A stretch of 64,000 nucleotides of DNA from Pseudacidobacterium ailaaui. GTDB taxonomy: Bacteria > Acidobacteriota > Terriglobia > Terriglobales > Acidobacteriaceae. The DNA lies in the NCBI RefSeq assembly GCF_000688455.1, contig NZ_JIAL01000001.1, forward strand, positions 496,001 to 560,000. The letters run 5' to 3'. The notes under the pieces are model-generated. The model was not told where the DNA came from and did no database searches. It saw nothing but the letters and a program-made list of their open reading frames with translations. Positions 40,605 to 55,753 of the stretch are shown here, one piece after another. The position numbers and the translations under genes are program-made. Positions within the stretch are counted from its first letter, which is position 1. Every line of letters begins with the position of its first letter.

Positions 40605-42254
40605 TTATTCGGTCTTGGTGCCAGCCGGCATGTTCTTTGCCGTCACCATTTTCTGTGAATCCAGCTTTTCGGCCGCCTCTTCCAAAGAAGCCGCCTGCGG
40701 CATATAGGTTAAAGCCTGATTGATCATCGGGTCCCAGGCGGCGCGGACCTTCAGGCCCTCCATCTGGCCAAAGACCGTGGTGAAGATCTCCGCCTTGATG
40801 TTGGTCTTGATCCAGTCCAGAACACCGTTAAATTCCTGGTCCGTAAAGGTGATGTCCTGGGAGCCAAGAAATTGCTTGAATTCACCGAGAACACGATCGT
40901 CCACCTGAAAGTCCCGGGTAACCTTGTGGTTCGGGTCTGCCAGATAGTGCCGGGCAAAATTAAAGAAGGAATAGTGCAGCGGAGACATCAGCACTTCCTG
41001 GAAATGCGTGGCCTTCGGTGTGTCGATCTTGACATCCGGAGTAATGCCACCCCCTCCATAGACCGTGCGCCCGGAATCGGTCAGTTTTACCTCGCGGTCT
41101 TTATTGTCCTGCGGCTGGTCGTGATTGTAGTAGTAATCGTAAAGAGAAACGCCGTTGTAATTGCGCTGGATCAACCTTCCGCTGGGCGTGTAGTAGTGGT
41201 AGGTCGTGAGTGCCAGGCCCGTGTTGTCGGAAAGTTGGTAGACCGTCTGCACGAGTCCCTTCCCGAATGTGGTCTCGCCCACAATCAGGGCCCGGTCGTG
41301 GTCCTGCAGCGCTCCGCTGACGATTTCCGCAGCAGACGCCGTCCCGTGGTTCACAAGAACGACGATCGGATAGGTCTTGCCGCCATTGCCGTGCATGGCA
41401 TGATAGGTCTGCTCAGGATAAGCACGTCCGCGCTGGGAAACAATCACCTGCCCTTTCTTCAGGAACTTGTCACAGGTGGCCACCGCCTCGGTCAACAGAC
41501 CTCCGGGATTGTTCCTCAGATCAATCAGCAGCCCTTTCAGGTCGGGACCAAAGCCGTCCAGAGCATCGGCGACCTCGCGCCCCGTGGTCTCCTGAAACTG
41601 GGTGATATGGATATATCCAATTCCCGGACGGATCCACTCCTTCAGGTCAATGCTCGGATGGGGGATCTCATCTCGCACCAGGTCAAAGGTGATCGGAGCA
41701 GCCACACCCTCACGCGAAACGGTCAATTTCACATGCGTACCCTTGGGGCCCTTCAGCATGTTGGCCACTTCTTCAGAACTCATCGAGTCGGTGCTCTTGT
41801 CATCCACTGAGAGAATGATGTCGCCCGGCCGCACACCCGCCTTGTAGGAGGGGGTGCCTTCATACGGGTAGATCACCACCACCTTTTGCACACCATTGAT
41901 GAGTTGTGGCTGAATGGTCATGCCCACGCCGTAGTACTTTCCGTGCTGGTCCTCTTTCATCTTGGCGTAGGCCTTGGGATCATAAAAGCTCGAATGCGGA
42001 TCGAGCGTGTGCAGCATCTCCGGAATCGCACCGTCATAGATGACCTTGTCCGGCATGTCGCCCGTCAGCGGTTCGGCGTAGTTCTGCGCCACCACGTCAT
42101 AAACGCTGGTAAAAGTCTTCAGGCTGTCGCGGAACTGTGATTCATCATCGCTGGATTGCGCGCCAACCTTCTGGCTGATGACCATGCCGGCCAGACCACA
42201 TGCGGAAAAGAAAACAGTGAGCGCGAAAACGGTACGGCGAGTGCGGGATGGCAT
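40605..42254 (-). CDS. S41-family carboxyl-terminal processing protease with PDZ domain
   Basis: A 549-residue exported serine protease (CtpA/Prc group). N-terminal signal/anchor (about 7-30), PDZ domain (about 115-195; YEGTPSYKAGVRPGDIILSVDD), then the S41 catalytic domain with Ser in NHGTASAAEI and Lys in GETTFGKGLVQT, plus DLRNNPGGLL. A C-terminal region of about 120 residues follows. Roles in the family include trimming periplasmic proteins and controlling peptidoglycan hydrolases. ATG 42254 is favoured because a signal peptide begins there; the frame extends to 42431 without a plausible product. TATACT at 42288-42293 (minus) is a -10-like box. Confidence 0.88.
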   Translation of the reverse strand: MPSRTRRTVFALTVFFSACGLAGMVISQKVGAQSSDDESQFRDSLKTFTSVYDVVAQNYAEPLTGDMPDKVIYDGAIPEMLHTLDPHSSFYDPKAYAKMKEDQHGKYYGVGMTIQPQLINGVQKVVVIYPYEGTPSYKAGVRPGDIILSVDDKSTDSMSSEEVANMLKGPKGTHVKLTVSREGVAAPITFDLVRDEIPHPSIDLKEWIRPGIGYIHITQFQETTGREVADALDGFGPDLKGLLIDLRNNPGGLLTEAVATCDKFLKKGQVIVSQRGRAYPEQTYHAMHGNGGKTYPIVVLVNHGTASAAEIVSGALQDHDRALIVGETTFGKGLVQTVYQLSDNTGLALTTYHYYTPSGRLIQRNYNGVSLYDYYYNHDQPQDNKDREVKLTDSGRTVYGGGGITPDVKIDTPKATHFQEVLMSPLHYSFFNFARHYLADPNHKVTRDFQVDDRVLGEFKQFLGSQDITFTDQEFNGVLDWIKTNIKAEIFTTVFGQMEGLKVRAAWDPMINQALTYMPQAASLEEAAEKLDSQKMVTAKNMPAGTKTE

Positions 42255-42620
42255 GTATGCTTGGACCCTCAGGGTGTCCTGTGGAAAGTATAGCAAGGCT
42301 GCGGCCCGGCGCGTTCCTGGCTCCGGACTGCATGTTTGGGGCATCGATTCGGCCGAATGGTCCTCGCTACGCATCTGCCCCCAAACACGCTCGCCAGACA
42401 AGCTCACCGGATGTTTTTCAAGTTCGTCCAAAATAGCGGACCGGATCTTTCACGACCGCTGCTTCGGCAAATGCCGACGGATTTGGCTCTGATTTGGATC
42501 GGCAGCGCCCTTCGGCGCGCTGGCCCGCTTACCTGCTTCTGTTTAGAATAGTTTGCAGGCGCAACCGGACATTGTGGAGCAGACCCCCAGACGCTGCGCG
42601 CACCTGAATCGAGACGTATC
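42255..42620. other. 366-base divergent promoter region (S41 protease / SurA-like)
   Basis: No supported gene. Contains a TATACT-like -10 for the minus gene near 42288-42293 and TAGAAT at 42544-42549, which may be the -10 of the plus-strand PPIase gene. GGCAGCGCCCTTCGGCGCGCTG at 42500-42521 can form a small hairpin. Confidence 0.4.
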
Positions 42621-44417
42621 ATGATGAATTTCAAAACCCTTCCGTTCCCGGCTGCATTCCTGGCAGGGATCGCATTCCTGAGTGGGCCTTCCCTCGTCCT
42701 GGCCCAATCCAAACCCGCTGCACCGGCACAGGATTCGCCCTATCAGGGCACAGTGGTCGAGCGCATCATCGCCCGGGTCAACGATCAGGTCATTACCAAT
42801 TCGGACTATCAGCGCGCGCGTCAGGAACTGGAAGCACAGGCCCGCCAGCAGGGATGGTCGCAGCAGCAGCTCTTTGAACAGGAACACAATCTCCTTCGTG
42901 ACCTGATTGATCAGCAATTGCTCCTATCCAAAGGCAAGGAGCTGGGCATCACCGGAGAATCAGAGACCATCAAGCGCCTGGACGATATCCGGAAACAGAA
43001 CCACCTGGACAGCATGGAGGACCTGCAGAAGGCCGCCGAATCGCAGGGTGTTTCCTTTGAGGACTTCAAGCAGCACATCCGCGAAGGCATCATCTCTTCG
43101 CTCGTCATCCGTGACGAGGTCGGCCGCCATCTTTCTGTCAGCCAGTCGGAGGTCCAGCAGTACTATGACCAGCACAAAGCCGACTTCGACCAGCCGGAAC
43201 AGGTCCGTCTGAGCGAAATCCTTGTTCCTACCCCCAATCCAGATGACGCCTCCCAAGTCGAAGCCGCCCAGAAGAAGGCCGATGCCATTGAAGCCAAACT
43301 GAAATCGGGCGCAGACTTTGCAGAGGTGGCAAAGACTGAATCCGGCGGCCCTACAGCGCAGCAGGGCGGCGATCTCGGTGAGTTCAAACGCGGTCAGCTG
43401 GCCAAGGTCTTGGAAGACCAGACTTTTAACCTGAAGGCAGGCGAATACACACAACCGATCCGTACCAAGCAGGGCTTTGTCATCCTGAAGGTCACCGAGC
43501 ACACCCCCGGTGGGATCCAGCCGCTCAAGGAGGTCGAGCCGCAGGTAGAGGACGCTCTTTACCAGCAGAAGATGGCCCCCGCTTTGCGTCAATATCTGAC
43601 CCGGCTCCGCGAAGAGGCCTATATTGAGATTGATTCCCGGGACGGCTATGAAGACTCAGCAGCCACCCCGAATGAAACCCAGCCGACGACAACCTATAGT
43701 GCCTACGTTCCGCCGACCGGCAAAAAGAAAAAGCACGTAGAGCGCACACGCTTCCGCCAGAAGGGCCCGCGGCAGAAGCCGGAAACAGAAACCGCAAGCA
43801 CGCCGGCCCCAGCCAATGCTCCTTCTCTGGCCCAGGTCCCGGGCGCAGCAGCTGCGGAGACAAACAATCCGCAGACCACTGCCGCGGCACAGCCTGCTCC
43901 TGCCCAGAAAAACAGCCAGGTGGCCAGCACCGGCGTAGAGAAACCGGGAAAGAAAGAAAAGATCCGCTTCGGTCAGGCTCCCCGCGAGACCCTTCCCTAC
44001 TCTCCCACCCGGACTGAAGATGCAGGCGCAACTACAGAGACCGCCAGCAGCAACGTCCCTCGGAACCTTCAGGTGGTAGGCCCCAACGGAGAGGTCGAGG
44101 ACCATACGACGCAGGAAAAAAAGGAGAAGTCCCGCTTCTCGGATCGCACGAAGCTGCCGAAGCAGAAAAAATCCAAAGACAAGACGGACCCGTTTGCTCC
44201 CGCTCCGGAGACGACCGATGAGCTTGCCACCCGCCAGACCCAGAGCACGCCGCTGGGCCTGAACGGCGATACCTCAAAACCAAAGAAGGAGAAACCCACG
44301 GGAAAGACGCGCCTTTCCGACAAGGCCAAGGAAAAGCCGGCCGACCAGCAGCAACAGCAGCAGGAGCAAACGCCTTCGGCGCCGCAGCCCTCGACGCAAT
44401 CTTCTCAGCAGAAGTAG
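42621..44417 (+). CDS. surA: SurA-like parvulin peptidyl-prolyl isomerase with long basic tail
   Basis: A 598-residue periplasmic chaperone. Signal peptide (about 1-28), SurA N-terminal domain (about 42-165; VERIIARVNDQVITNSD) and one parvulin domain (about 192-295; ILVPTPNP, GGDLGEFKRGQL, GFVILKVTEH). E. coli SurA has two parvulin domains; one is common outside proteobacteria. From about residue 345 a disordered Pro/Thr/Ala/Gln tail carries four Lys-rich units centred on KKEKxRF (about 368-381, 444-453, 500-509, 555-570). The ATG is the second-strongest evidence only; MMN gives two adjacent starts. Likely role: outer-membrane protein assembly. Confidence 0.85.
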   Translation: MMNFKTLPFPAAFLAGIAFLSGPSLVLAQSKPAAPAQDSPYQGTVVERIIARVNDQVITNSDYQRARQELEAQARQQGWSQQQLFEQEHNLLRDLIDQQLLLSKGKELGITGESETIKRLDDIRKQNHLDSMEDLQKAAESQGVSFEDFKQHIREGIISSLVIRDEVGRHLSVSQSEVQQYYDQHKADFDQPEQVRLSEILVPTPNPDDASQVEAAQKKADAIEAKLKSGADFAEVAKTESGGPTAQQGGDLGEFKRGQLAKVLEDQTFNLKAGEYTQPIRTKQGFVILKVTEHTPGGIQPLKEVEPQVEDALYQQKMAPALRQYLTRLREEAYIEIDSRDGYEDSAATPNETQPTTTYSAYVPPTGKKKKHVERTRFRQKGPRQKPETETASTPAPANAPSLAQVPGAAAAETNNPQTTAAAQPAPAQKNSQVASTGVEKPGKKEKIRFGQAPRETLPYSPTRTEDAGATTETASSNVPRNLQVVGPNGEVEDHTTQEKKEKSRFSDRTKLPKQKKSKDKTDPFAPAPETTDELATRQTQSTPLGLNGDTSKPKKEKPTGKTRLSDKAKEKPADQQQQQQEQTPSAPQPSTQSSQQK

Positions 44418-44429
44418 GCCGGTAGCGCC

Positions 44430-45479
44430 ATGAAAGACCTTTTTGTCCACGACCTGACCAAGCAGGAAAACCAGGTCATCACCGGTTTTTTTGCTGTCGC
44501 GCAAAAGCAGAGGCGCACCACACGCGACGGTGCGCCTTATCTCGCCCTTCTGGTTTCTGATCGCACCGGACAGATCGAATGCCGCATCTGGGAAACAGCT
44601 TCCTCCGTTGCCGATTTTGAGCAGGGAGACGTCGTCAAGCTACAGGCGCAGGTCTGCCGCTACCAGGAAAAGCTCCAGCTCAAAGTAGAAAAGGTCCGGA
44701 AGGCGAAGCCGGAAGAATATGACCTGGGCGATTTTGTCCCTACCACCTCGCGCAACGTTGAAGATCTCTGGGCTGAGCTGAACCAATACGTCTCCAGCTT
44801 CACCAATCCACATCTTCACGCATTACTGCGCGCTTTTCTGGATGACCCGCAGATCGCCGAGGCGCTGCGCTCAGCGCCGGCCGCCAAGACCATGCATCAT
44901 GCCTGGATCGGTGGCCTGCTGGAGCATATTGTCTCCCTGCTGGGCGTGGCCAGTGACATGGCCCTCCGCTATCCGGAAATCAACCGCGACCTGCTTCTTA
45001 CCGGGGTCGTGCTGCATGACATTGGGAAGCTGCACGAACTGCGCTGGGGCACCGAGTTTGACTACACCATCGAAGGACATCTGGTGGGTCATATCGCCAT
45101 CGGCCTCCGCATGGTGGAACAGAAGATTTCGGCCCTGCCGGATTTCCCCAGTCCCTTGCGGATTCTTGTCGAGCACCTGATTCTCAGTCACCATGGGAAA
45201 TACGAATTTGGCTCTCCCCGGCTGCCGATGGTGCCGGAAGCCGTCATGCTGCACTACCTGGACGATCTCGACGCCAAAATGCAGACCCTTCGCAGTGAGT
45301 TCCTGCGTGCGGAAGCCAATGGACGCGCGCCGGGACAAATGACAGAATGGGTACGCGCCATGGAACGCCCCTTGCTGAATACTGCCCAGTACCTCGCAGA
45401 GCAGCAGTCCAGGCCTGCGCCGGAGGAAGCCGATGCATTACCTGCTCAAGACGGAACCGGAAACCTATTCCTTTTATGA
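44430..45479 (+). CDS. OB-fold + HD-domain 3'-5' exoribonuclease, YhaM type
   Basis: A 349-residue protein with an N-terminal OB-fold (about 15-95; IECRIWETA) and an HD phosphohydrolase domain (about 150-310) with His in MHHAWIGGLLEH, the HD motif in VLHDIGKLHE and ILSHHGKYEFGS. This is the architecture of B. subtilis YhaM, an RNA/DNA 3'-5' exonuclease. It begins 12 bases after the SurA-like gene, so they are probably an operon, and its 3' end overlaps the EVE-domain gene by 47 bases. Confidence 0.88.
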   Translation: MKDLFVHDLTKQENQVITGFFAVAQKQRRTTRDGAPYLALLVSDRTGQIECRIWETASSVADFEQGDVVKLQAQVCRYQEKLQLKVEKVRKAKPEEYDLGDFVPTTSRNVEDLWAELNQYVSSFTNPHLHALLRAFLDDPQIAEALRSAPAAKTMHHAWIGGLLEHIVSLLGVASDMALRYPEINRDLLLTGVVLHDIGKLHELRWGTEFDYTIEGHLVGHIAIGLRMVEQKISALPDFPSPLRILVEHLILSHHGKYEFGSPRLPMVPEAVMLHYLDDLDAKMQTLRSEFLRAEANGRAPGQMTEWVRAMERPLLNTAQYLAEQQSRPAPEEADALPAQDGTGNLFLL

Positions 45480-45813
45480 CCTTGAACGTGAAGGCGAAAC
45501 CGTGTGGGATGGCGTGACCAACCCTGTTGCGCTGAAGTTCCTCCGTAGTATGCAGCCCGGAGAGAAACTCGTCATCTACCACACCGGAGACGAACGCACC
45601 GCCGTGGGTACCGCCATTGTCGTTTCTGTGGATGCGGACAATCCCCGGTCCCCTGTCGTCCGCATCAAGGCCGGAAAGAAAATCAAAACGCCCCGCACCT
45701 TGGCCGAAATCAAGGCCCACAGGCTCTTTGCGGATTCGCCGCTTGTCCGCCAGGGCAGACTGTCAGTCGTTCCCCTCAATGATGCCCAGTATGCATGGCT
45801 GACCAGTGAATAA
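45433..45813 (+). CDS. EVE-domain protein
   Basis: A 126-residue PUA-like EVE-domain protein (family hallmark YLLKTEPETYSFYDL ... WDGVTNPVALKFLRSM, and YHTGDERTAVG). EVE domains bind modified bases in nucleic acids or small thymine-like ligands; many solitary EVE proteins are predicted to act on tRNA or DNA with modified cytosine. It overlaps the YhaM-type gene by 47 bases, with ATG inside that gene after GGAGG, implying coupled expression of an RNA-binding protein and a nuclease. Confidence 0.88.
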   Translation: MHYLLKTEPETYSFYDLEREGETVWDGVTNPVALKFLRSMQPGEKLVIYHTGDERTAVGTAIVVSVDADNPRSPVVRIKAGKKIKTPRTLAEIKAHRLFADSPLVRQGRLSVVPLNDAQYAWLTSE

Positions 45814-45921
45814 AAGCCGCGGGGTATCGATTCTGCTCCTGCAAAAGGCCCTTTGCTGCTCTTGCCTGGTCCGGGACCAGGTCTTTCTCTGCGCTACAAT
45901 CAGAAGTGGCACAGCACGCAA

Positions 45922-47103
45922 ATGTTACGTTTCTCTACCGCAGGTGAATCACACGGCGAGAGTCTGATTGCCTTGGTTTCCGGGCTTCCGGCCGGCATTG
46001 AAGTAGACCTCAGCTTCATCAACCGTGAATTATGGCGACGCCAGCAAGGCTACGGCCGCGGCGGACGTATGCGCATTGAGCAGGACACGGCCCACATTCT
46101 TTCCGGGGTCCGCCACGGCAAGACCATCGGCTCTCCTGTCGCCATCGAAATTGAAAACCGCGACTGGAAGAACTGGACCGAAGTGCTTCCGGTAGACAAG
46201 GGCGATCCGGCCAAGCACAAAGCCGTTGCCTCTCCGCGCCCCGGCCACGCCGATCTTGCCGGCGCACTCAAGTATGACTTTCCCGATGCCCGCTATGTGC
46301 TCGAACGCGCCTCGGCCCGTGAGTCCACGGCCCGCGTCGCCGCTGGGGCCCTGGCCAAGTTGTTGCTGCTCTCTCTGGGAATCGATGTAGCCAGCCATGT
46401 CATCCGCGTTGGTCACGCCGAATTGGAACGCGATGCTTGCTGGGAGGAGATTGCCGCGCTCCGCGGCAAGGAGGAAGTCCTGCTGGGCTGCGTAGATCCG
46501 GAAGCCGAAGCGCGTATGAAGGAAGAAGTCGATAAAGTGCTGCGCACCGGGGATACCGTCGGCGGGGTCTTTGAGGTGGTCATTCACAACGCACCAGCCG
46601 GCATCGGTACCCACGCCAATTGGGACGAGCGCCTGGATGGCATCCTTGCCCAGGCCGTCATGTCGCTCCAGGCCGTCAAGGCCGTAGAAATCGGACGCGG
46701 AGTCACCGCCGCTGAATCTTTTGGCTCTGAAGTGCATGACGCTATTGGATACGCCAGCAGCCTGCCTGCCGGGGCGCATACTCGCTTTACTCGTGAGCGC
46801 AACAATGCCGGTGGCGTCGAAGGAGGCATCTCCAACGGAGAAGACATCATCGTGCGCGGCTATCTGAAGCCCATTTCCACCCTGCGCCGCCCACTGCAGT
46901 CTGTGCGCTTCGACACCCGCGAAGTGACCAAGGCGGCCTACGAACGCAGCGACGTCTGCGTTGTCCCCGCTGCCGGTGTGGCGGCAGAGGCGATGGTGGC
47001 ACTGGCCTTTGCGCGGCTGGTCCTCGAAAAGTTCGGAGGAGATTCGTTGCGCGAGCTGAAGCGTAACTATGATGGTTACATAGAGCAGATTCGCGCTTAT
47101 TGA
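45922..47103 (+). CDS. aroC: Chorismate synthase (AroC)
   Basis: A 393-residue FMN-dependent enzyme converting EPSP to chorismate, the last shikimate-pathway step. The family blocks GESHGESLIALVSGLPAGI, RRQQGYGRGGRM, HADLAGALKYDF, ERASARESTARVAAGA and ERNNAGGVEGGISNGEDI are complete, including the FMN-site His and Arg. ATG 45922 is chosen because homologues start MLRFSTAGESHG; a longer frame to 45853 adds unrelated sequence. Followed by def with a 75-base gap. Confidence 0.96.
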   Translation: MLRFSTAGESHGESLIALVSGLPAGIEVDLSFINRELWRRQQGYGRGGRMRIEQDTAHILSGVRHGKTIGSPVAIEIENRDWKNWTEVLPVDKGDPAKHKAVASPRPGHADLAGALKYDFPDARYVLERASARESTARVAAGALAKLLLLSLGIDVASHVIRVGHAELERDACWEEIAALRGKEEVLLGCVDPEAEARMKEEVDKVLRTGDTVGGVFEVVIHNAPAGIGTHANWDERLDGILAQAVMSLQAVKAVEIGRGVTAAESFGSEVHDAIGYASSLPAGAHTRFTRERNNAGGVEGGISNGEDIIVRGYLKPISTLRRPLQSVRFDTREVTKAAYERSDVCVVPAAGVAAEAMVALAFARLVLEKFGGDSLRELKRNYDGYIEQIRAY

Positions 47104-47178
47104 CCTTGCACCCGCTCGGAACAGAGGCCGGGCGAAACCATGATCCAGCGGCTGCCGCGAAAGCAAGAATTGAAGTAG

Positions 47179-47688
47179 ATGATTCGACCCATCGTTAAAT
47201 ATCCTGATCCGGTCCTTCAGCGTCGCACGGAACCCGTTACCGAGTTCAACAATGAGTTGCGCGCTCTGGTGGATGACATGTTTGAATCCATGTACGCCGC
47301 GCAGGGAATCGGCCTGGCCGCACCCCAGATTGGCGTGCCGAAACGCCTTACCGTCATCGATTTAAGCCTGGGGAAAGACCCGAAAGAGAAGATCGTCCTG
47401 GTCAACCCTGAAATCATCCATAAAGAAGGCAGGCAGGTCGAGGAGGAAGGCTGTCTGAGCCTCCCGGAGATCCGTGAGAAGGTCTCACGGGCCTATAAGG
47501 TGCGCGTCCGCGCCCAGGACCTCGATGGAAATTGGTTTGAGCTCGACGGAGAGGAGCTGCTTGCCCGCGCCTTCCAGCATGAAATTGACCACCTCGATGG
47601 CATCCTGTTCATCTTCCGGATAAGCGCATTGAAGCGCGACCTCATCCTGCGCAGGATCCGTAAACTGCAGCGCGCAGGCGAGTGGTAA
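47179..47688 (+). CDS. def: Peptide deformylase
   Basis: A 169-residue iron/zinc metalloenzyme removing the formyl group from nascent peptides. All three motifs are present: GIGLAAPQIG, EEGCLSLPE (metal Cys) and QHEIDHLDG (two metal His and catalytic Glu). Length is normal. fmt, the usual neighbour, does not follow; instead an AT-rich gap leads to the GvpL/F gene. Confidence 0.96.
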   Translation: MIRPIVKYPDPVLQRRTEPVTEFNNELRALVDDMFESMYAAQGIGLAAPQIGVPKRLTVIDLSLGKDPKEKIVLVNPEIIHKEGRQVEEEGCLSLPEIREKVSRAYKVRVRAQDLDGNWFELDGEELLARAFQHEIDHLDGILFIFRISALKRDLILRRIRKLQRAGEW

Positions 47689-47979
47689 AACTCGGCATCT
47701 CACCCACAAAAGAGGAGCATCTGGTGGCTGAGTACCTCTATTTTTCATATTGAGAAAATAGATTTCTATTTCATAAAAACAAAATCTGGCCTTTCGGCTA
47801 ACCTTTTCATTTTTATCCCCTGAAAAAGTTGCCAGTTGTTCCTCCAGAGGACTAGGATACGTGTCAGTTCGGGGTAGTCTGGGCAGTTTCTGACACACCA
47901 GAACAATGCAGCAGTTGAATCGTTTCACAGGTGCCAATGTAATCCCACTTCAACAAGCCAGTGTACGGAGCGATTTTTT
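47689..47979. other. 291-base AT-rich intergenic region before the GvpL/F gene
   Basis: The stretch 47735-47830 is much more AT-rich than the surroundings (TATTTTTCATATTGAGAAAA and TTTCATAAAAACAAAATC). TTGAGAAAATAG and similar boxes could hold a promoter, but no spacing is compelling. No gene or RNA is recognised. Confidence 0.45.
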
Positions 47980-48753
47980 ATGGCATGGTATGCCTACTGC
48001 ATTACAGAGAAGCAAGCCTTTCCTGAACTCCTTCGCCATCGTAAGCCCATTCCTTTTGAGTCTGTTTCCGGAATTGCTGGAAACCAGGTTTTTCTCTATC
48101 CGGCCAGCGATCTGGCCGTCATCGTCAGTGAACATTGTCCGGAAGACACGCAGCACGAACGTGCAGCCCTGGAGCATGCTCGCGTGATTGCAGATTGTTT
48201 CAAAACATCCACCGTCCTTCCCTTCCGCTTTGGCACTGTCTTTGCCGACGACGATAGCCTTCGTCGGTCGATCCGTTCTAATCAGCGCCAGTTCCTCACC
48301 AACATTGAGCGTCTCCGTGGCAAGGCCGAAATGCACCTGAAGGTGGTGCTGGATGATTGCTGCCGCGAACAGATTCGCGCTTATGCCCACACCCAGACTG
48401 GACCTGGTCGCGAATATCTGGCGCAGCTGCGTGAAAACGCCACGCTGCAACGGGAGCGCCAGACCAAAGCACGCGCCATCTCAGTCCAGATGCACCGCAT
48501 GTTTTCCCCTCTGGCCGAGGAGATTACCTGCCGCCGCATGGATTCCGGCAAGATGCTGCTCGATATCGCCCATCTGATTGAGCACAAGTCGGTAGAGCGC
48601 TATCAGAACAAATATTCCAGCGCGCTGCAACTGATGAAAGATTGCCAGATGCAGCTCTCCGGCCCCTGGCCACCCTATCACTTTGTACACCGGCTCACGA
48701 CGCGCCATCACCACCAGGGACACCCGGCGGTCCCGCAGCCGGCCCATGCCTGA
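47980..48753 (+). CDS. GvpL/GvpF-family gas vesicle protein, orphan
   Basis: A 257-residue protein of the GvpL/GvpF family, which nucleates or decorates gas vesicles together with GvpA. The two family hallmarks are PFRFGTVF (81-88) and the terminal SGPWPPYHFV (227-236), joined by a helical middle section. No GvpA, GvpN, GvpK or other gas-vesicle gene lies within this window. ATG 47980 follows ACGGAG by about ten bases. A bidirectional terminator follows directly. Solitary members outside gas-vesicle clusters have no established function. Confidence 0.88.
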   Translation: MAWYAYCITEKQAFPELLRHRKPIPFESVSGIAGNQVFLYPASDLAVIVSEHCPEDTQHERAALEHARVIADCFKTSTVLPFRFGTVFADDDSLRRSIRSNQRQFLTNIERLRGKAEMHLKVVLDDCCREQIRAYAHTQTGPGREYLAQLRENATLQRERQTKARAISVQMHRMFSPLAEEITCRRMDSGKMLLDIAHLIEHKSVERYQNKYSSALQLMKDCQMQLSGPWPPYHFVHRLTTRHHHQGHPAVPQPAHA

Positions 48754-48754
48754 A

Positions 48755-48792
48755 AACAAAAAACCCCGGCGGACCCACGAACCGCCGGGGTT
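48755..48792. terminator. Bidirectional rho-independent terminator
   Basis: AACCCCGGCGG pairs with CCGCCGGGGTT (11 bp, nine-base loop). On the minus strand it is followed by TTTTTTGTTTT, serving the porin gene; on the plus strand TTCTCTCTTCT serves the GvpL/F gene. Confidence 0.9.
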
Positions 48793-48891
48793 CTCTCTTC
48801 TGGAGCAGAGATCGAATCAGCCTGATCAGCGCTCGACCTCTGTTTACAAAGACGCAGACAAACCAAAAATGTTTACGAAAAATGCGTCTGC

Positions 48892-50379
48892 CTAAAAATG
48901 CCAGATGAGGTCTCCCGCAAACGTAAGCTGGGTTGATTTCGTCGGCGCTCCTCCCGTAGGAGCATCATAGGCGGGCTTGTCATAAGAGTGCTCCAGCCGT
49001 AGCTCCGGCCGGAAGGTCACTGTACTTCCAACCCAGTAATTGAACCCCAGCAGATGCTCGCTGTACTTTGTCGCCGTACCGGTGCGCTGGCCCCGGATGT
49101 CATCCAGAAATTCATTGCGGATGGTCATCGAAGTATGATGATGGTTCCATTCATGCTCGATGTAGTTCACCACCGCCCAGTCAGGAGCATAACAGTGAGT
49201 GGCAGCAGGATTACACTGCGCGCCATTGGCACCCGGAATTAGAGAAGGAGAGTGGATCTCTCCGGCATTGGCCCCGATGTTCGCCCCCGGTCCATCGCTG
49301 ATGCAGGGGTCCAACCCGTAACACAGGTTGGGCACATCGCGCTCATACTGGTACCACCCTTCCGTGGCCGTGTGCCAGCTTGCATTGAATTTGTGATAGT
49401 AGGTGAGGTAATACGCTGAAACATTGTTGTACGAGTACTTTGCCGAGTTCAGCGAGTTTGCGCAGAAGTAGAGATTGTCGCCCCCCGTATGCCAGGTGTA
49501 TGCCGCACAGGCATTTCCCGTCAGCTTGGCATACTTCGTCCAGGGAGCGGCCTCGCATCCGGCCGAAACACCTCCCTGCACTGTCCAGTGCTGGCTTAGC
49601 TTGGTGGTCACATTCACGCCGTGCTGTGTGTAACAGTCATAGGTATAAAGCAAGGAATGGCTGTAGGTGTAATTATTGGGAGCAAGCTGCGCTTCAATAT
49701 CAGGCAGAGAAATATATCGTCCTACACGGACATCCGTCCCTTGCCCGAGATGCGGCAGATAAAAATCCAGGTAGTACATCACCGGGTCGTATCCATACGT
49801 ATTGTTGCTCTTGAGCAGCTGCTGGCTGAAAACGCCATACGCCGTTGTATAGCGATAATCCAGCCCATAGATGCTGGCGAAGCGGAATCCCCAATCAAAG
49901 TGCTCCTTCTGCACCGTGTCCGGCAGGCGCTCAAAGTACAGGGCCGCCTGGTCCAGCTGGACCGAGTTGGGGACCACGTCGTAGGCCGCCGGAGCATTGG
50001 CAAATTTGCCCTTGTTTGATGTGCTGGCGTTGTAGCCAAAATCGAACCATCCGTAAATCTTGAAGCGCGTCTCATTCTGATTGACCGCCTGCATCAGCAT
50101 ATAGGTCTGGTAATCGGGCGCGCCAATCACAGGAGTGCCTCCAATCGGCCAGTCTGCCGATGGAAACGGAGGTGAATTGAGCGGAGCTGGCGTTCCTCTG
50201 CGCTGCGGCTCCGGAGCGGGTGGCAGATTGCTGGAGCTCGCCGTCCAGTCATCCAGATATGCGTGTCCCAACCGTGTCCAGAAACCCTGGCTCTGCGTGG
50301 ATCGGCCCGTATCCTGCGCAAAGGCCTGCAGGGAAAACATGGCCACCAGTAAAAAGATAAGCGATGATTTTTGTCCCAT
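48892..50379 (-). CDS. BBP2-type outer-membrane beta-barrel protein
   Basis: A 495-residue exported barrel: signal peptide (about 1-22), a short linker with Pro/Gly/Thr, then alternating aromatic strands starting FKIYGWFDFGYNAST and ending TQLTFAGDLIWHF. This matches putative OmpL/BBP2-type porins of Acidobacteriota. Several Cys (about eight) in the loops suggest disulfides, unusual for porins. ATG 50379 is chosen to give the signal peptide; the longer frame to 50430 adds a non-leader. Followed by the bidirectional terminator. Confidence 0.78.
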   Translation of the reverse strand: MGQKSSLIFLLVAMFSLQAFAQDTGRSTQSQGFWTRLGHAYLDDWTASSSNLPPAPEPQRRGTPAPLNSPPFPSADWPIGGTPVIGAPDYQTYMLMQAVNQNETRFKIYGWFDFGYNASTSNKGKFANAPAAYDVVPNSVQLDQAALYFERLPDTVQKEHFDWGFRFASIYGLDYRYTTAYGVFSQQLLKSNNTYGYDPVMYYLDFYLPHLGQGTDVRVGRYISLPDIEAQLAPNNYTYSHSLLYTYDCYTQHGVNVTTKLSQHWTVQGGVSAGCEAAPWTKYAKLTGNACAAYTWHTGGDNLYFCANSLNSAKYSYNNVSAYYLTYYHKFNASWHTATEGWYQYERDVPNLCYGLDPCISDGPGANIGANAGEIHSPSLIPGANGAQCNPAATHCYAPDWAVVNYIEHEWNHHHTSMTIRNEFLDDIRGQRTGTATKYSEHLLGFNYWVGSTVTFRPELRLEHSYDKPAYDAPTGGAPTKSTQLTFAGDLIWHF

Positions 50380-50595
50380 AATTCTCACTGTTGTCACCGG
50401 GATTGAGACTATGGGACGGACCATAAGCATGGACTAAGCGAGGCATAAACAGTCCATAAAGGACCAAAGAATGGCAGCGCTGCCAACGCCAGAATCCGCC
50501 TGCCGTGCCGCAACGGGGCCGCAACTTTTCCGCAGTCCGCGTAGAGCTGGGCACGTACCGGAGAAGGCGGCCTCATCCGTTGATAGACTCAAAGT

Positions 50596-53295
50596 ATGCA
50601 ATCCCGTTCCGGTAACGAAATCCGAGAGATGTTTCTGCGTTTTTTTGAGACGAAGGGCCACCGCCGCGTGCATTCGTCTTCTCTGGTCCCTGCCAATGAC
50701 CCCACTCTGCTCTTCACCAACGCTGGCATGAACCAGTTCAAAGATGTCTTTCTCGGGTTGGAGCAGCGTGACTACTCCCGCGCCACCACTTCACAGAAGT
50801 GCGTCCGTGCCGGTGGCAAGCACAATGACCTGGAAAACGTCGGCTTCACGCGCCGCCACCATACTTTCTTCGAGATGCTGGGCAACTTCAGCTTTGGCGA
50901 CTACTTCAAGAAAGAAGCCATTGCCTATGCCTGGGAGCTGGTCACCTCGCCGGAATGGTTCGGCATCCCTAAGGACCGTCTTTACGTGACCATCTTCAAG
51001 GGTGAGAACGGTGTCCCGCGTGACGAGGAAGCCTACAATCTGTGGCTCGCACAGGGAGTACCCGCCGACCGCATCCATGAATACGGCATGAAGGACAACT
51101 TCTGGCAGATGGGCGACACCGGCCCCTGCGGTCCCTGTTCGGAGATCTTCTATGACATGGGCATCGAGGCCAGCGAGACCGGAGAAGACAGGCCCTTTGG
51201 CCAGGACGATTCGCGCTACGTCGAAATCTGGAACCTGGTCTTTATGCAGTTTGACCGTAATGCCCAGGGCGAATTGAACCTGCTGCCCAAACCTTCCATT
51301 GATACCGGCGCCGGTCTTGAACGCATGGCAGCCGTGCTCCAGGGAAAGATCTCTAATTTCGAGACCGACTTGTTCACGCCGCTGATTGAGCGGGCAGCGG
51401 AGCTGACGGGGCATTCAGCCGGTAACCCAGCGGCCCGGCAAACCAACGGTTCTGTTCTGACCGGCAATGCCTCGCTGCGCATCATCGCCGACCACGCCCG
51501 CGCGGCCACTTTTCTCATCTCTGACGGCGTTCTCCCTTCCAATGAAGGTCGCGGTTATGTGCTGCGCAAGATCCTTCGCCGTGGCATCCGTCATGGCCGT
51601 CTGCTTGGGCAGGAGAAGCCCTTCATGTGCCAGATGGTCTTCGCCGTCCGCGATGAAATGCAGAACGCTTATCCCGAGCTAAAGGAAAGCGCAGACCGCG
51701 TCTCCAAGGTCATCGAGGCCGAAGAGCGGCAGTTTGCGCGGGTGCTTGAGGTGGGATCTCGCCAGCTCCAGTCGGCCCTGCAGCAAGGTTCTCTGGATGG
51801 CAAGACCGCTTTCCATCTTTACGAGACGTACGGCCTGCCCCTTGACTTCATGATGGACGCGGCCCGCGACGCAGGGGCCCACTTCGACCTCGAAGGCTTT
51901 GAGCGCGCACGCGCCGAAGAGCAGGCCCGTGCCCGCGCTTCCTGGAAGGGCGGAACGAAGCAATCGGCCAACCCGGTCTTCCGCGAGCTGCCTAAAACCG
52001 AATTTGAAGGCTATCGCCAACTCACCTCCACCGGATGCGAAGTCCTCGCCATCATCAAAGACGGGCAGGGCGTACCGTCGGCAAGTCCTGGCGATACAGT
52101 GGAAGTCGTGCTCGACCACACCAGCTTCTATGCTGACTCTGGCGGACAGATTGGCGACCACGGCTGGCTCTATTCCGAGGATCACAACTCCGTCGTTGCC
52201 GATGTGAGCGGATGCACCAAGCCCGTCCAAGGCATCTTCGCCCACAAGACCGTGCTGCGCCAGCCGCTGAAGTTGGGCGACAAGGTAGATACAGTTGTAG
52301 ATGGCAATTTCCGCGCTGCTGTGCGCCGCAACCATACAGGGACACATTTGCTCCATGCCGCGCTGCGCGAAGTGCTGGGAAAACACGTCAAACAGGCCGG
52401 CTCTCTCGTCGAACCGAACCGTCTGCGCTTTGACTTCTCGCACTTTACTTCGATTGCCGACGAAGAGCTTCAGGACATCGAAGACCTCATCAACAAAGAG
52501 GTTCTTGCCAACACCCCGGTCCAGACCCTGGAAGACGTGCCCATCGATGTAGCCATCAATGAGTACCATGCGATGGCGCTCTTTGGCGAAAAGTACGGCG
52601 AGAAGGTGCGCGTGGTGAAGATCGGCGACTTCTCCACCGAGCTCTGCGGTGGCACACATACCGGCGCGACAGGCGAAATTGGCGTGGTCAAACTGCTTGG
52701 CGAGGGCAGTGTGTCCTCCGGTGTGCGCCGCGTCGAGGCCGTCACCGGATTTGGCGCCTTGCACGAGTTCCGCCGCGACTTTGCCGTCGCGCAGCTTGCT
52801 TCGCAGCTTGCTCCCAATGTTGATCTGTCTCCTGCAGAAGCACTTCGGCAGAGGCTCTCCGCGCAGGAAGAAGAACTCAAAAAGCTCCGCCGCGAGCTGG
52901 AGCAGATGCGCATGAAATCCGCCGCTTCCGCCGTGTCCGACGCCGCCAGCCAGGCCATCGAAGTCAACGGAATCAAAGTGCTGGCCCAGCGCGTGGATTC
53001 CCTGGACCGCGGACAGATGCGCACCCTGGTAGACAATCTGCGCCAGAAACTCGGCTCTGGAGTGGTCGTGCTTGGCTCCGCGCAGGAAGAAGGCAAGGTG
53101 GCGCTGATTGTCGGCGTGACGAAAGACCTCACCGGAAAAGTACAGGCGGGCAAGCTGGTCGGCCAGATTGCAAAAATCGTCGGCGGTTCCGGAGGTGGAC
53201 GGCCGGACATGGCCGAAGCCGGCGGCAAGGACGCAGCGCAGCTGGATGCCGCCCTGCAAAGTGCTTCAAAAATCGTCGCCGAGCTCGCTGGGTGA
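50596..53295 (+). CDS. alaS: Alanyl-tRNA synthetase
   Basis: An 899-residue class II aminoacyl-tRNA synthetase. N-terminal catalytic domain with [20 protein letters not shown] and [14 protein letters not shown]; editing domain with the HxxxH site [14 protein letters not shown] and the zinc Cys in [16 protein letters not shown]-terminal DHHA1/C-Ala domain with [15 protein letters not shown]. Complete. ATG 50596 begins the usual catalytic start. It heads a unit that continues with the amidase gene about 208 bases on. Confidence 0.97.
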
Positions 53296-53503
53296 AGATG
53301 ATCCTCTGGCTGGACCATCAGGCATAGGTCCGGTGGTTCAGTCGCGCAGTGTAGCCAAGACCTGTGGGAGGACCCTTGTTCTACCTTGAACTTCGGTTTC
53401 CATCCTGGTTTCCTCCCTTTCAGTTCTGTTTTTCTTCGATTGCTCCGGCCTTCCGCCCCACCTATAATCAAGATGTCTCTGGCGTGTGCCTCTGAAACTG
53501 CTT

Positions 53504-55753
53504 ATGCCGCATCCTTACCGAACTGGAGGACGCACGCTTTTTTTGTGCCTTCTGCTGGCCTGCGCGTCTTCAGCATTTGCGGCACAGCATACGCCACTTT
53601 CTCCTTATGAAAAGGCCCAGCGAATGCGCGAAGCGCTCGAAGGCCGTCCGGAGCAGCAGCGTACCCGTCGCGATTACGAGCGGGTCCTGAATGCCTATCG
53701 CTCCATCTATCACAGTGACCCGGCCTCGCCCAAGGCAGACGCCAGCATCTCCGCAGTGGCGGAACTCCTCGCCGAACAGGGACGCATCTTTCAGGACGAA
53801 AAATCGCTGCATGACGCCATCGGACAATACGAGTTCCTGCGCAAGCAGTATCCTGCCAGCCGCTTTCGTTACAGCGCCCTGCTGACTGAAGGTGAAATTT
53901 ATCTGCACGATCTCGATGACCGCGCCAGCGCAAAGGCAGTCTTCCAGCAGTTTCTCCGGCTTTACCCCAAAAACTCTCTGGCCGAGCAAGCACGCCAGGA
54001 GCTGAGCAACATCCACAAACAGGAAATTGCTGCCAAGCACAGGAAACCAACCTCGGCGCAGGCGAAACAATCGCCCGGAGCAAAGCCGCTCGAAAAACCG
54101 CCATCAACTCCTGAGGCAGAAAACGCCTCTGTACGGAGCACAGGAGACCTTTCCAGGCCCCAGCCTGCTGCTGCAACCGATTCCCGGCGCGCACAGGAAC
54201 CAGCAGAGGGGCCCAGGCTCAGTGACGCCGCCATGAATGCGCCTCCGCCACCGCCGCGCAAGGGCAGGCTGCCTCTTGTTACCGGTATCCGCCACTGGTC
54301 GACCCCTGTCTACACAAGGGTCGCAATTGACCTACAGGATGAGGTGCAATACGAGGCGTCGCGTGTGCCGGACCCGGACCGCATCTTCTTTGATCTGCAT
54401 GGGGCCCGGCTGGCTCCGGAGCTGGTCGGCAAGTCCGTTGAGGTCACCGATGACGGATTTCTGAAGCGCGTCCGCGCTGCGCAGTTTTCCAATGACGTCA
54501 CGCGCATTGTGCTTGACGTCAGCGACGTCAGCGAATACTCGGCCTTTCTGCTGCCCAATCCCTGGCGCCTGATTATTGACGTCCACGGCAAAAAACCAGG
54601 GACCGCGCCGCTGGCCGCCTCGGCACAGCCGGCTCAGAACTCCCCCTCCGGCCAGCCCTCTCGCACAGAGGAACATCCTCCCGCTCCGCAAATCGCAGCC
54701 CAGAAGAAGCCCCTCCCCTCGCCCTCTCAGCCTGCGCCTTCAACGCCAGTACAACAGCAGGACAGCTCTTCGGCAAAAGACATTGCTGCACTGGACCGGC
54801 AGCCAAATCGCGTCAAGGCCACCAGACATCCTACGACAGCACCGGTCGTGCAGACGGTTGCAGGTACAAAGCCGGAAGAGCAGCCCAATGAATGGGAAGC
54901 CCTGCGCAACACTCCGCCTCCACAACCTGCGAAAAGGAGCGGCAAAGCCACGCGCACGGCCGATGCCAATGCCTTACCTGCGCACGAAGCCCAACCCACG
55001 GCCACCGGAGAGCGCTCCATGGTGCGTGCCCTGGGCCTGAAGATCGGTCGCATTGTCGTCGACGCCGGACACGGCGGACACGATTCCGGAACGCTCGGCC
55101 CCGGCGGCATTGAAGAGAAGGACGTCGTGCTCGATGTGGCCCTCCGCCTGGGAAAACTGCTCCGGCAGCGCCTGGGGGCTGATGTGATCTACACGCGCGA
55201 CGATGACACGTTCATTCCGCTCGAAACGCGCACTGCAATTGCCAACAAGGCACAGGCCGACCTGTTTATCTCTGTCCACGCCAACTCCAGCCAGGACCCT
55301 TCAGCACGCGGCGTGGAGACCTATTATCTCAACTTCACGACCTCTGCTGACGCGCTTGAGGTAGCGGCCCGCGAAAATGCCGTCTCTGACCAATCCATTC
55401 ACCAGCTCTCTGACCTGGTAAAAAAGATCGCCCTCCAGGACAAGATCAGCGAATCGCGCGAATTTGCTACGGACGTGCAAGAAAGCCTCTTTGCCGGGCT
55501 GCAGAGCGGCAATCCTGGATTGAAAGACCGCGGTGTGAAAAAGGCGCCGTTTGTGGTCCTGATTGGCGCAAACATGCCTTCGATCCTGGCGGAAATCTCC
55601 TTCCTCACCAATCCCGACGACGCCCGCGAACTGCGCGACCCGGAGTATCGCCAGCGCATCGCTGAATCGCTTTATCGAGGAGTGGCCCGCTACGTCAGCA
55701 GCCTGAGCGGTGTGCGCATCGCACAGAATGAATCGCATTCATCGGGAAACTGA
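53504..55753 (+). CDS. N-acetylmuramoyl-L-alanine amidase with TPR-like and AMIN domains
   Basis: A 749-residue periplasmic peptidoglycan amidase. Signal peptide (about 1-26), helical TPR-like repeats (about 35-180), Pro-rich linker, AMIN domain (about 255-355; VAIDLQDEVQYEASRVPDPDRIFFDLHGA), another disordered linker, and Amidase_3 (about 505-735) with zinc-site residues in IVVDAGHGGHDSG, Glu in GIEEKDVVLDV, HANSS and the closing Glu in ILAEISFLTNP. AMIN targets cell-division septa in AmiC. Here it is fused to an unusual N-terminal TPR module. ATG 53504 is preferred; GTG 53486 is an alternative. Confidence 0.85.
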   Translation: MPHPYRTGGRTLFLCLLLACASSAFAAQHTPLSPYEKAQRMREALEGRPEQQRTRRDYERVLNAYRSIYHSDPASPKADASISAVAELLAEQGRIFQDEKSLHDAIGQYEFLRKQYPASRFRYSALLTEGEIYLHDLDDRASAKAVFQQFLRLYPKNSLAEQARQELSNIHKQEIAAKHRKPTSAQAKQSPGAKPLEKPPSTPEAENASVRSTGDLSRPQPAAATDSRRAQEPAEGPRLSDAAMNAPPPPPRKGRLPLVTGIRHWSTPVYTRVAIDLQDEVQYEASRVPDPDRIFFDLHGARLAPELVGKSVEVTDDGFLKRVRAAQFSNDVTRIVLDVSDVSEYSAFLLPNPWRLIIDVHGKKPGTAPLAASAQPAQNSPSGQPSRTEEHPPAPQIAAQKKPLPSPSQPAPSTPVQQQDSSSAKDIAALDRQPNRVKATRHPTTAPVVQTVAGTKPEEQPNEWEALRNTPPPQPAKRSGKATRTADANALPAHEAQPTATGERSMVRALGLKIGRIVVDAGHGGHDSGTLGPGGIEEKDVVLDVALRLGKLLRQRLGADVIYTRDDDTFIPLETRTAIANKAQADLFISVHANSSQDPSARGVETYYLNFTTSADALEVAARENAVSDQSIHQLSDLVKKIALQDKISESREFATDVQESLFAGLQSGNPGLKDRGVKKAPFVVLIGANMPSILAEISFLTNPDDARELRDPEYRQRIAESLYRGVARYVSSLSGVRIAQNESHSSGN

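Follow-up and report, generated by a model that had tools for sequence, protein, structure and literature searches.

Published passages (PMC7688916, PMC11445434, PMC9501494) depict GvpF of vesicle-making organisms as a binding partner that presumably keeps GvpA soluble, and GvpL as a platform for the other Gvp proteins. For Halobacterium salinarum, such passages describe GvpF as binding GvpA and GvpL as attracting all other accessory Gvp proteins (PMC7688916, PMC9501494), and a gvp cluster is described for Microcystis in a passage of PMC9501494; one for Anabaena is named in a paper title. In the passages considered, GvpF and GvpL appear solely as helpers of gas-vesicle assembly (PMC7688916, PMC11445434, PMC9501494). 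Among the matches listed in a search of the open-licence literature, we found no paper with a title or opening of the abstract devoted to a solitary GvpL/F in Acidobacteria; an earlier report may exist elsewhere. In papers that mention gas vesicles, gvp, and Acidobacteriota, the passages considered link vesicles to other organisms or name no acidobacterium.

Here we analyze a solitary GvpL/GvpF-family gene in the window, which is the whole 64,000-nt stretch of Pseudacidobacterium ailaaui DNA under study. A sequence-only reading had described the gene as either repurposed or a relic, with retained function favored. On the best reading, it is the form taken in Acidobacteriaceae by an old GvpL/GvpF paralogue, one that would work without gas vesicles and stands apart from the vesicle-cluster copies. 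We refer to this gene and its counterparts as the orphan GvpL/F. As far as we have seen, the GvpL/F family has been described but a probably vesicle-independent branch of it, spanning a whole bacterial family and marked by a promoter-like site and residues of its own, apparently has not.

Results

A full-length GvpL/GvpF-family gene in a genome without matches to the other gvp families searched

The gene and the elements around it are as follows.

47730..47828, + strand: AT-rich stretch, 30.3% GC compared with 57.6% for the window; a possible UP-like region (putative function)
47829..47858, + strand: sigma-70-type promoter-like site, TTGCCA, 18-nt spacer, TAGGAT; pattern kept in main-clade relatives
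47866..47979, + strand: predicted 5' leader, about 114 nt long and containing GGAG (47967-47970); start assumed a few bases past the -10 box
47980..48753, + strand: solitary GvpL/GvpF-family gene, 257 aa (from the ORF, Pfam, orthologues, and tree)
48220..48243, + strand: PFRFGTVF motif, residues 81-88, from the sequence; P81 in 43/43 and T86 in 32/43 cluster-type rows
48658..48687, + strand: SGPWPPYHFV motif, residues 227-236; His234 is orphan specific, and the 43 vesicle-cluster rows have Asn, Ser, Glu, Arg, or Thr
48762..48792, + strand: 11-bp perfect GC-rich hairpin, terminator-like; fold -24.7 kcal/mol, z -3.6, weak T-run

The reading frame opens with ATG. Pfam profile PF06386 (GvpL_GvpF) aligned to the predicted protein over its full length (profile positions 1-245 of 245) at 196.9 bits and E 7.5e-58, which exceeds the gathering cut-off of 23.6 and is far past chance level. 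It was also the sole Pfam family matched at E up to 1. However, the protein scored below the cut-offs of both NCBIfam equivalogs, with 50.8 bits versus 200 for GvpL (NF045778) and 29.9 bits versus 350 for cyanobacterial GvpF (NF052351). Therefore, it is a family member that falls in neither functional group. Both GvpL/F signatures claimed in the sequence-only reading are present and in frame. We fetched 80 orthologous loci, the best 80 of 259 relatives. All 80 orthologues open with ATG and MAWYAYC and have an intact frame, the copy in locus L111 reaching the end of its contig without a stop.

The host genome is a single contig of 3,686,523 bases, scored as 100% complete. We searched it for PF00741 (the GvpA family, which we take to cover GvpA, J, S, and M), PF06386, GvpK (PF05121), and GvpG (PF05120). 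The window gene was the sole PF06386 match in the whole genome, and there were no matches to PF00741, GvpK, or GvpG. As positive controls, PF00741 matched in 23 of 396 genomes of the phylum, and GvpK, run on 10 genomes, matched in the four GvpA carriers described below; neither matched in 14 named control genomes. For GvpG, controlled on the named genomes, the only matches were sub-cut-off ones in two of them, so its absence is the least secure of these negatives. The earlier observation that no other gvp gene lies nearby thus holds genome-wide for the four families. A gvpA cluster elsewhere, which by the earlier account would make this gene a dispersed member, was looked for with PF00741 and GvpK and was not found. 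Membership in a gvp set dispersed through the genome is ruled out for the families searched (PF00741, GvpK, and GvpG).

A solitary GvpL/F is the rule in Acidobacteriaceae

PF06386 was found in 67 of 396 genomes sampled across the phylum, including 44 of 44 Acidobacteriaceae. In a sample of the class, it was found in 99 of 299 genomes: 74 Acidobacteriaceae and 25 others. These are all of the Acidobacteriaceae sampled (74/74), which follows from the misses listed in order of kinship, where the first miss is a genome of the same order and none is from this family. PF00741 was found in only four of the 74 (G073, G121, G576, and G627), leaving 70 without GvpA. Each GvpA carrier has four GvpL/F, one of the orphan type outside the cluster and three more. 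Therefore, a solitary GvpL/F is the rule in Acidobacteriaceae and is not peculiar to the window genome, and the orphan copy persists alongside a gvp cluster in relatives. Both points go beyond what had been seen from the single locus.

Among the 25 carriers of PF06386 from other families, 18 had PF00741 and 7 did not. Those seven were six genomes of one family of the same class (f92) and one genome of family f2 (G442), in which the match was partial. A single GvpL/F was present in six of the seven f92 genomes sampled and GvpA in none of them (0/7). The sole f92 genome without GvpL/F is 82% complete.

The orphan GvpL/F forms a lineage apart from vesicle-cluster copies

An orphan profile was built from 81 sequences, the window protein plus its orthologues. 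The out-of-cluster copies of the four GvpA carriers scored 336-338 bits with it and the f92 copies 96-155 bits, and vesicle-cluster copies scored at most 68 bits over all loci searched and at most 59 bits in the four GvpA carriers. Identity to the window protein was 50-52% for the orphan copies of the four carriers, 28-35% for f92, and 15-28% for 43 cluster rows.

A maximum-likelihood tree of 80 rows was also constructed. The tree is arbitrarily rooted and contains several long-branched cluster rows, which leaves its deeper order uncertain. One side of a branch (support of 95/98) comprises the 29 orphan rows, those of the four GvpA carriers among them, and the orphans and six f92 rows together form one clade (100/98). 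The phylogeny proposed in the sequence-only reading thus placed the solitary copies in one clade, distinct from the cluster copies. The profile scores and tree indicate that the orphan GvpL/F descends separately from vesicle-cluster GvpF/L.

Two GvpA-less Acidobacteriaceae have a second, diverged GvpL/F, at 3452-4159 of L131 (G257) and 3516-4421 of L132 (G265). Both grouped with vesicle-cluster copies, outside the orphan clade. It is possible that they are leftovers of lost gvp clusters.

Purifying selection and orphan-specific residues

We estimated dN/dS by the Nei-Gojobori method over the first 237 codons in 24 pairs, one of which was identical and had no ratio. Values were 0.009-0.105 in the nine pairs with dS of <1 and 0.024-0.166 in the other 14, in which dS was larger and partly saturated. 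The orphan gene is under strong purifying selection. Residues 7, 66, 73, 119, 184, 195, 198, 208, 222, and 234 were identical in 81 of 81 sequences (the window protein and 80 orthologues), a count that applies to close relatives because the 80 loci are the top-ranked ones.

The tree alignment allowed comparison with more distant copies. D195, H198, Y208, and H234 occur in 29 of 29 orphan rows; the six f92 rows all have H198, Y208, and H234, and five have D195. In contrast, the commonest letters of the 43 cluster rows at positions 195, 198, 208, and 234 are N (28 rows), F (26), F (33), and N (25), and the orphan letters occur there in only 2, 1, 1, and 0 rows, respectively. C184 is in 29/29 orphan, 5/6 f92, and 0/43 cluster rows, and C222 is in 28/29, 4/6, and 1/43, respectively. 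In cluster rows, L is commonest at 222, and position 184 is mixed but never Cys. D195, H198, Y208, and H234 thus set the orphan apart from vesicle GvpF/L. The orphan-specific residues could be equally compatible with ligand or metal binding.

A promoter-like site kept in the main clade and a single-gene unit

We collected 80 upstream regions: one from the window, 77 from orthologues, and two from deep-branching orphans. Three of the 80 orthologues were left out for having <250 nt upstream. The pattern TTGCC[AG]-N17-19-TANNAT was present in 77 of these regions, at 129-208 nt ahead of the start codon, with a spacer of 18 in 76. The three regions without it were that of L059, which has an assembly gap there, and those of the two deep-branching orphans, so that 77 of 78 main-clade regions have the promoter-like site. 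Background occurrence was 12 in 4000 shuffles and 15 in 1977 other 300-nt pieces. In the upstream regions searched, the site was found in none of four deep-branching orphans and none of six f92 copies. Therefore, it is a feature of the main clade only. An exact copy of a stricter pattern occurs only here in the whole host genome, with two mismatches at five other places. A backwards control pattern had six matches within two mismatches, as many as the pattern itself, so only the exact match counts and there is no sign of a regulon.

The claim that the gene has its own AT-rich leader held only in part. The AT-rich stretch exists, but it is placed 5' of the predicted -35 element and so is not itself the transcribed leader. 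The claimed terminator corresponds to the 11-bp hairpin after the stop codon, which is terminator-like although its T-run is weak. RNAalifold on 30 leaders gave five weak pairs, none with both sides changed, and Rfam gave no match above its gathering score, with two sub-threshold matches that were both at the 3' hairpin. A structured RNA leader was rejected on these results. An ATGCAG and an inverted repeat of 7 bp (GTGTCAG...CTGACAC) occur within the leader and the bases just before it; judged by eye, neither is kept as a structure or frame in the relatives compared.

The window gene lies in no gvp cluster, and its neighbors as assigned by Pfam include no gvp gene. To its left are SurA/rotamase, HD plus OB-fold, EVE, chorismate synthase, and peptide deformylase genes, and to its right are a convergent BBP2 porin gene and then alaS (alanyl-tRNA synthetase). 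We searched the reading frames of 41980-54753 against the 80 loci. The orphan gene was found in 79 of 80 (the copy in L111 is stopless). Own-gene overlaps aside, the only window frames matched in other loci were peptide deformylase (two loci) and 53570-54070 (one locus, E 1e-10). The 80 loci represent several distinct gene contexts, with no conserved operon partner among them and no common neighbor that names a client. Neighbors differ between species while the promoter-like site persists, which points to a single-gene anatomy. Flanking frames of six f92 loci also revealed no shared operon by eye.

Two neighbor families recur most often in a map of the fetched loci, with L111-L120 and the window outside it. 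A 212-aa proline-rich protein with no Pfam match is encoded at 41 of 80 loci, on the same strand as the orphan gene in 39; in 36 of 77 loci, its gene is the closest conserved one upstream on that strand. A pgsA-like gene (name read from sequence) is present at 42 loci, on the opposite strand in 37. Where there is a nearest conserved same-strand upstream gene (53 of 77 loci), it ends 139-1443 nt before the orphan start. The proline-rich protein, exemplified by L072:5026-5664, has a C-terminal hydrophobic stretch, and it is not at the corresponding place in the window.

Searches for a phage link returned no phage record, no viral contig encoding a relative, and no PHROGs family, and NCBIfam and PADLOC yielded chance-level Cas1 matches only. 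A phage or defence link was rejected on these null searches. A plasmid search returned 27 records with remote relatives of <60% identity; the 20 listed were mostly annotated as gas-vesicle proteins.

A predicted GvpF-like fold

A profile of 60 sequences (the window protein and 59 orthologues) matched GvpF structures 6l5d (E 0.001) and 4qsg (E 0.11). Two predicted models had pLDDT of 66.4 and 70.3 and pTM of 0.47 and 0.53, and the conserved tail was their least confident part. For both, the top Foldseek matches were GvpF crystal structures, with E of 3.8e-8 to 4.2e-7 for one model and 7.8e-8 to 3.5e-7 for the other; the best of these (E 3.8e-8 and 7.8e-8) had a probability of 1.00. TM-scores of the models to GvpF were 0.39-0.50. 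VIA-align gave Z 9.0 for 4qsg (212 residues, rmsd 7.8) and Z 9.8 for 6l5d (216 residues, rmsd 6.3), so that GvpF was highest or joint-highest, tied on Z with small ferredoxin-like domains; aspartokinase and PII-like domains came within 1 Z of GvpF, over <90 residues. The C-terminal half aligned with aspartokinase ACT, PII-like, and CutA structures at Z 8.1-9.0 over 72-85 residues with 5-12% identity, although middling VIA Z values are common for a ferredoxin-like fold. The structural comparison proposed earlier favored vesicle GvpF, at modest model confidence. The window protein is predicted to have a GvpF-like fold; the fold is supported, but its details are not.

Discussion

The orphan GvpL/F very probably has a conserved function that is independent of vesicles. 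Carriage by all 74 sampled Acidobacteriaceae, low dN/dS, and a promoter-like site kept in the main clade argue for retained function. Of the two options in the sequence-only reading, the relic has fallen away and retained function stands; repurposing itself is our interpretation. The promoter-like site suggests that the orphan would be made as a stand-alone protein during ordinary growth. GvpA, GvpG, and GvpK are missing as far as searched, which makes it parsimonious that the client-binding fold was retained and the client exchanged. The orphan would then bind a different aggregation-prone or amphipathic client, keeping it soluble or delivering it. By analogy with vesicle GvpF and GvpL, it may work in a chaperone or adaptor mode, to which we give slightly less than even weight. 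The explanation as a whole, an old GvpL/F paralogue that is vesicle independent, housekeeping type, and bound to another client, we consider evenly balanced.

As the main alternative, the orphan might be a ligand- or metal-binding regulator, its C-terminal ferredoxin-like half having turned sensor, with D195, H198, H234, C184, and C222 at or near the site. These five residues and Y208 are identical in all 81 sequences, and f92 keeps them in most rows (H198, Y208, and H234 in 6/6, D195 and C184 in 5/6, C222 in 4/6), whereas the commonest letters in cluster rows are N195, F198, F208, N234, and L222, with never a Cys at 184. The modeled resemblance of this half to aspartokinase ACT, PII-like, and CutA structures (Z 8-9) would also fit a sensor. 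However, middling Z values come readily with this fold, and D195 lies three residues from H198 along a single predicted strand, a spacing that would tend to place them on opposite faces. We consider such a regulator somewhat unlikely. If the orphan were a resident helper for transient gvp clusters, it would be idle in most species and used when a cluster is present. GvpA does occur in four of the 74 Acidobacteriaceae genomes, and genus g11 contains both a GvpA carrier (G627) and a genome that lacks it (G257). Even so, each of the four carriers has three further GvpL/F, and its orphan copy lies elsewhere in the genome, has 50-52% identity with the window protein, and retains D195, H198, Y208, and H234. 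Strong selection in GvpA-less species also requires a function there, and we think this role very unlikely.

The idea of a relic, left to decay after the loss of a gvp cluster, draws on the absence of the other gvp families searched from the genome and on the two GvpA-less relatives with a diverged cluster-type GvpL/F, which suggest that relics may exist in Acidobacteriaceae. Against it, the frame and start are intact in the 80 orthologues (one cut by a contig end), dN/dS is well below 1, the promoter-like site is kept in the main clade, and all 74 genomes carry the gene. This conservation rules out a relic for practical purposes, and we regard it as extremely improbable.

Returning to an old paralogue with a function of its own, one bolder proposal is that Asn/Phe/Asn of vesicle GvpF/L became Asp195, His198, and His234, which with the extra Cys would form a ligand-, metal-, or client-binding site, so that GvpL/F was reused outside vesicles as a core single-gene protein of Acidobacteriaceae and f92. 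We think this rather unlikely in full. If it were true, vesicle GvpF/L and the orphan would be two branches of a broader family named after one use. Every sampled genome of this soil family carries the gene, and 70 of the 74 have no shell protein, which indicates that the GvpL/F fold can serve otherwise. The label "gas vesicle synthesis protein" is misleading for Acidobacteriaceae genomes and could be mistaken for a buoyancy trait. The orphan also offers a simple test bed: a lone gene with a promoter-like site of its own, in hosts some of which are named isolates.

The closest described systems include the GvpF proteins of Microcystis aeruginosa (4qsg) and Anabaena sp. PCC 7120 (6l5d), which have a near full-length likeness to the orphan in the predicted models, with 12-19% identity in the structural alignments. 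Both are described as gas-vesicle proteins, whereas the orphan is without a cluster or GvpA match. The conserved D195, H198, and H234 of the orphan are contrasts with the vesicle-cluster rows and not with the 4qsg and 6l5d chains. GvpL and GvpF of H. salinarum are remote relatives in sequence (for gvpF, 21.1% identity with 95% of the query covered). Their partners set that organism apart from the window genome, which has no GvpA, GvpG, or GvpK match.

The solitary GvpL/F of f92 is the sister clade, also a single copy in six of seven genomes and with H198, Y208, and H234 kept. It differs from the window type in its 28-35% identity, in having Arg for H119, and in having no C73 and no promoter-like site (0/6). 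The vesicle-cluster GvpF/L of G073, G121, G576, and G627 belong to the same phylum and Pfam family and occur beside an orphan copy. Cluster copies differ from the orphan in identity (15-28% over 43 rows), in their place in the tree, and in orphan-profile scores that do not exceed 68 bits. They nevertheless share with it P81 (43/43), G228 (42/43), and F235 (43/43).
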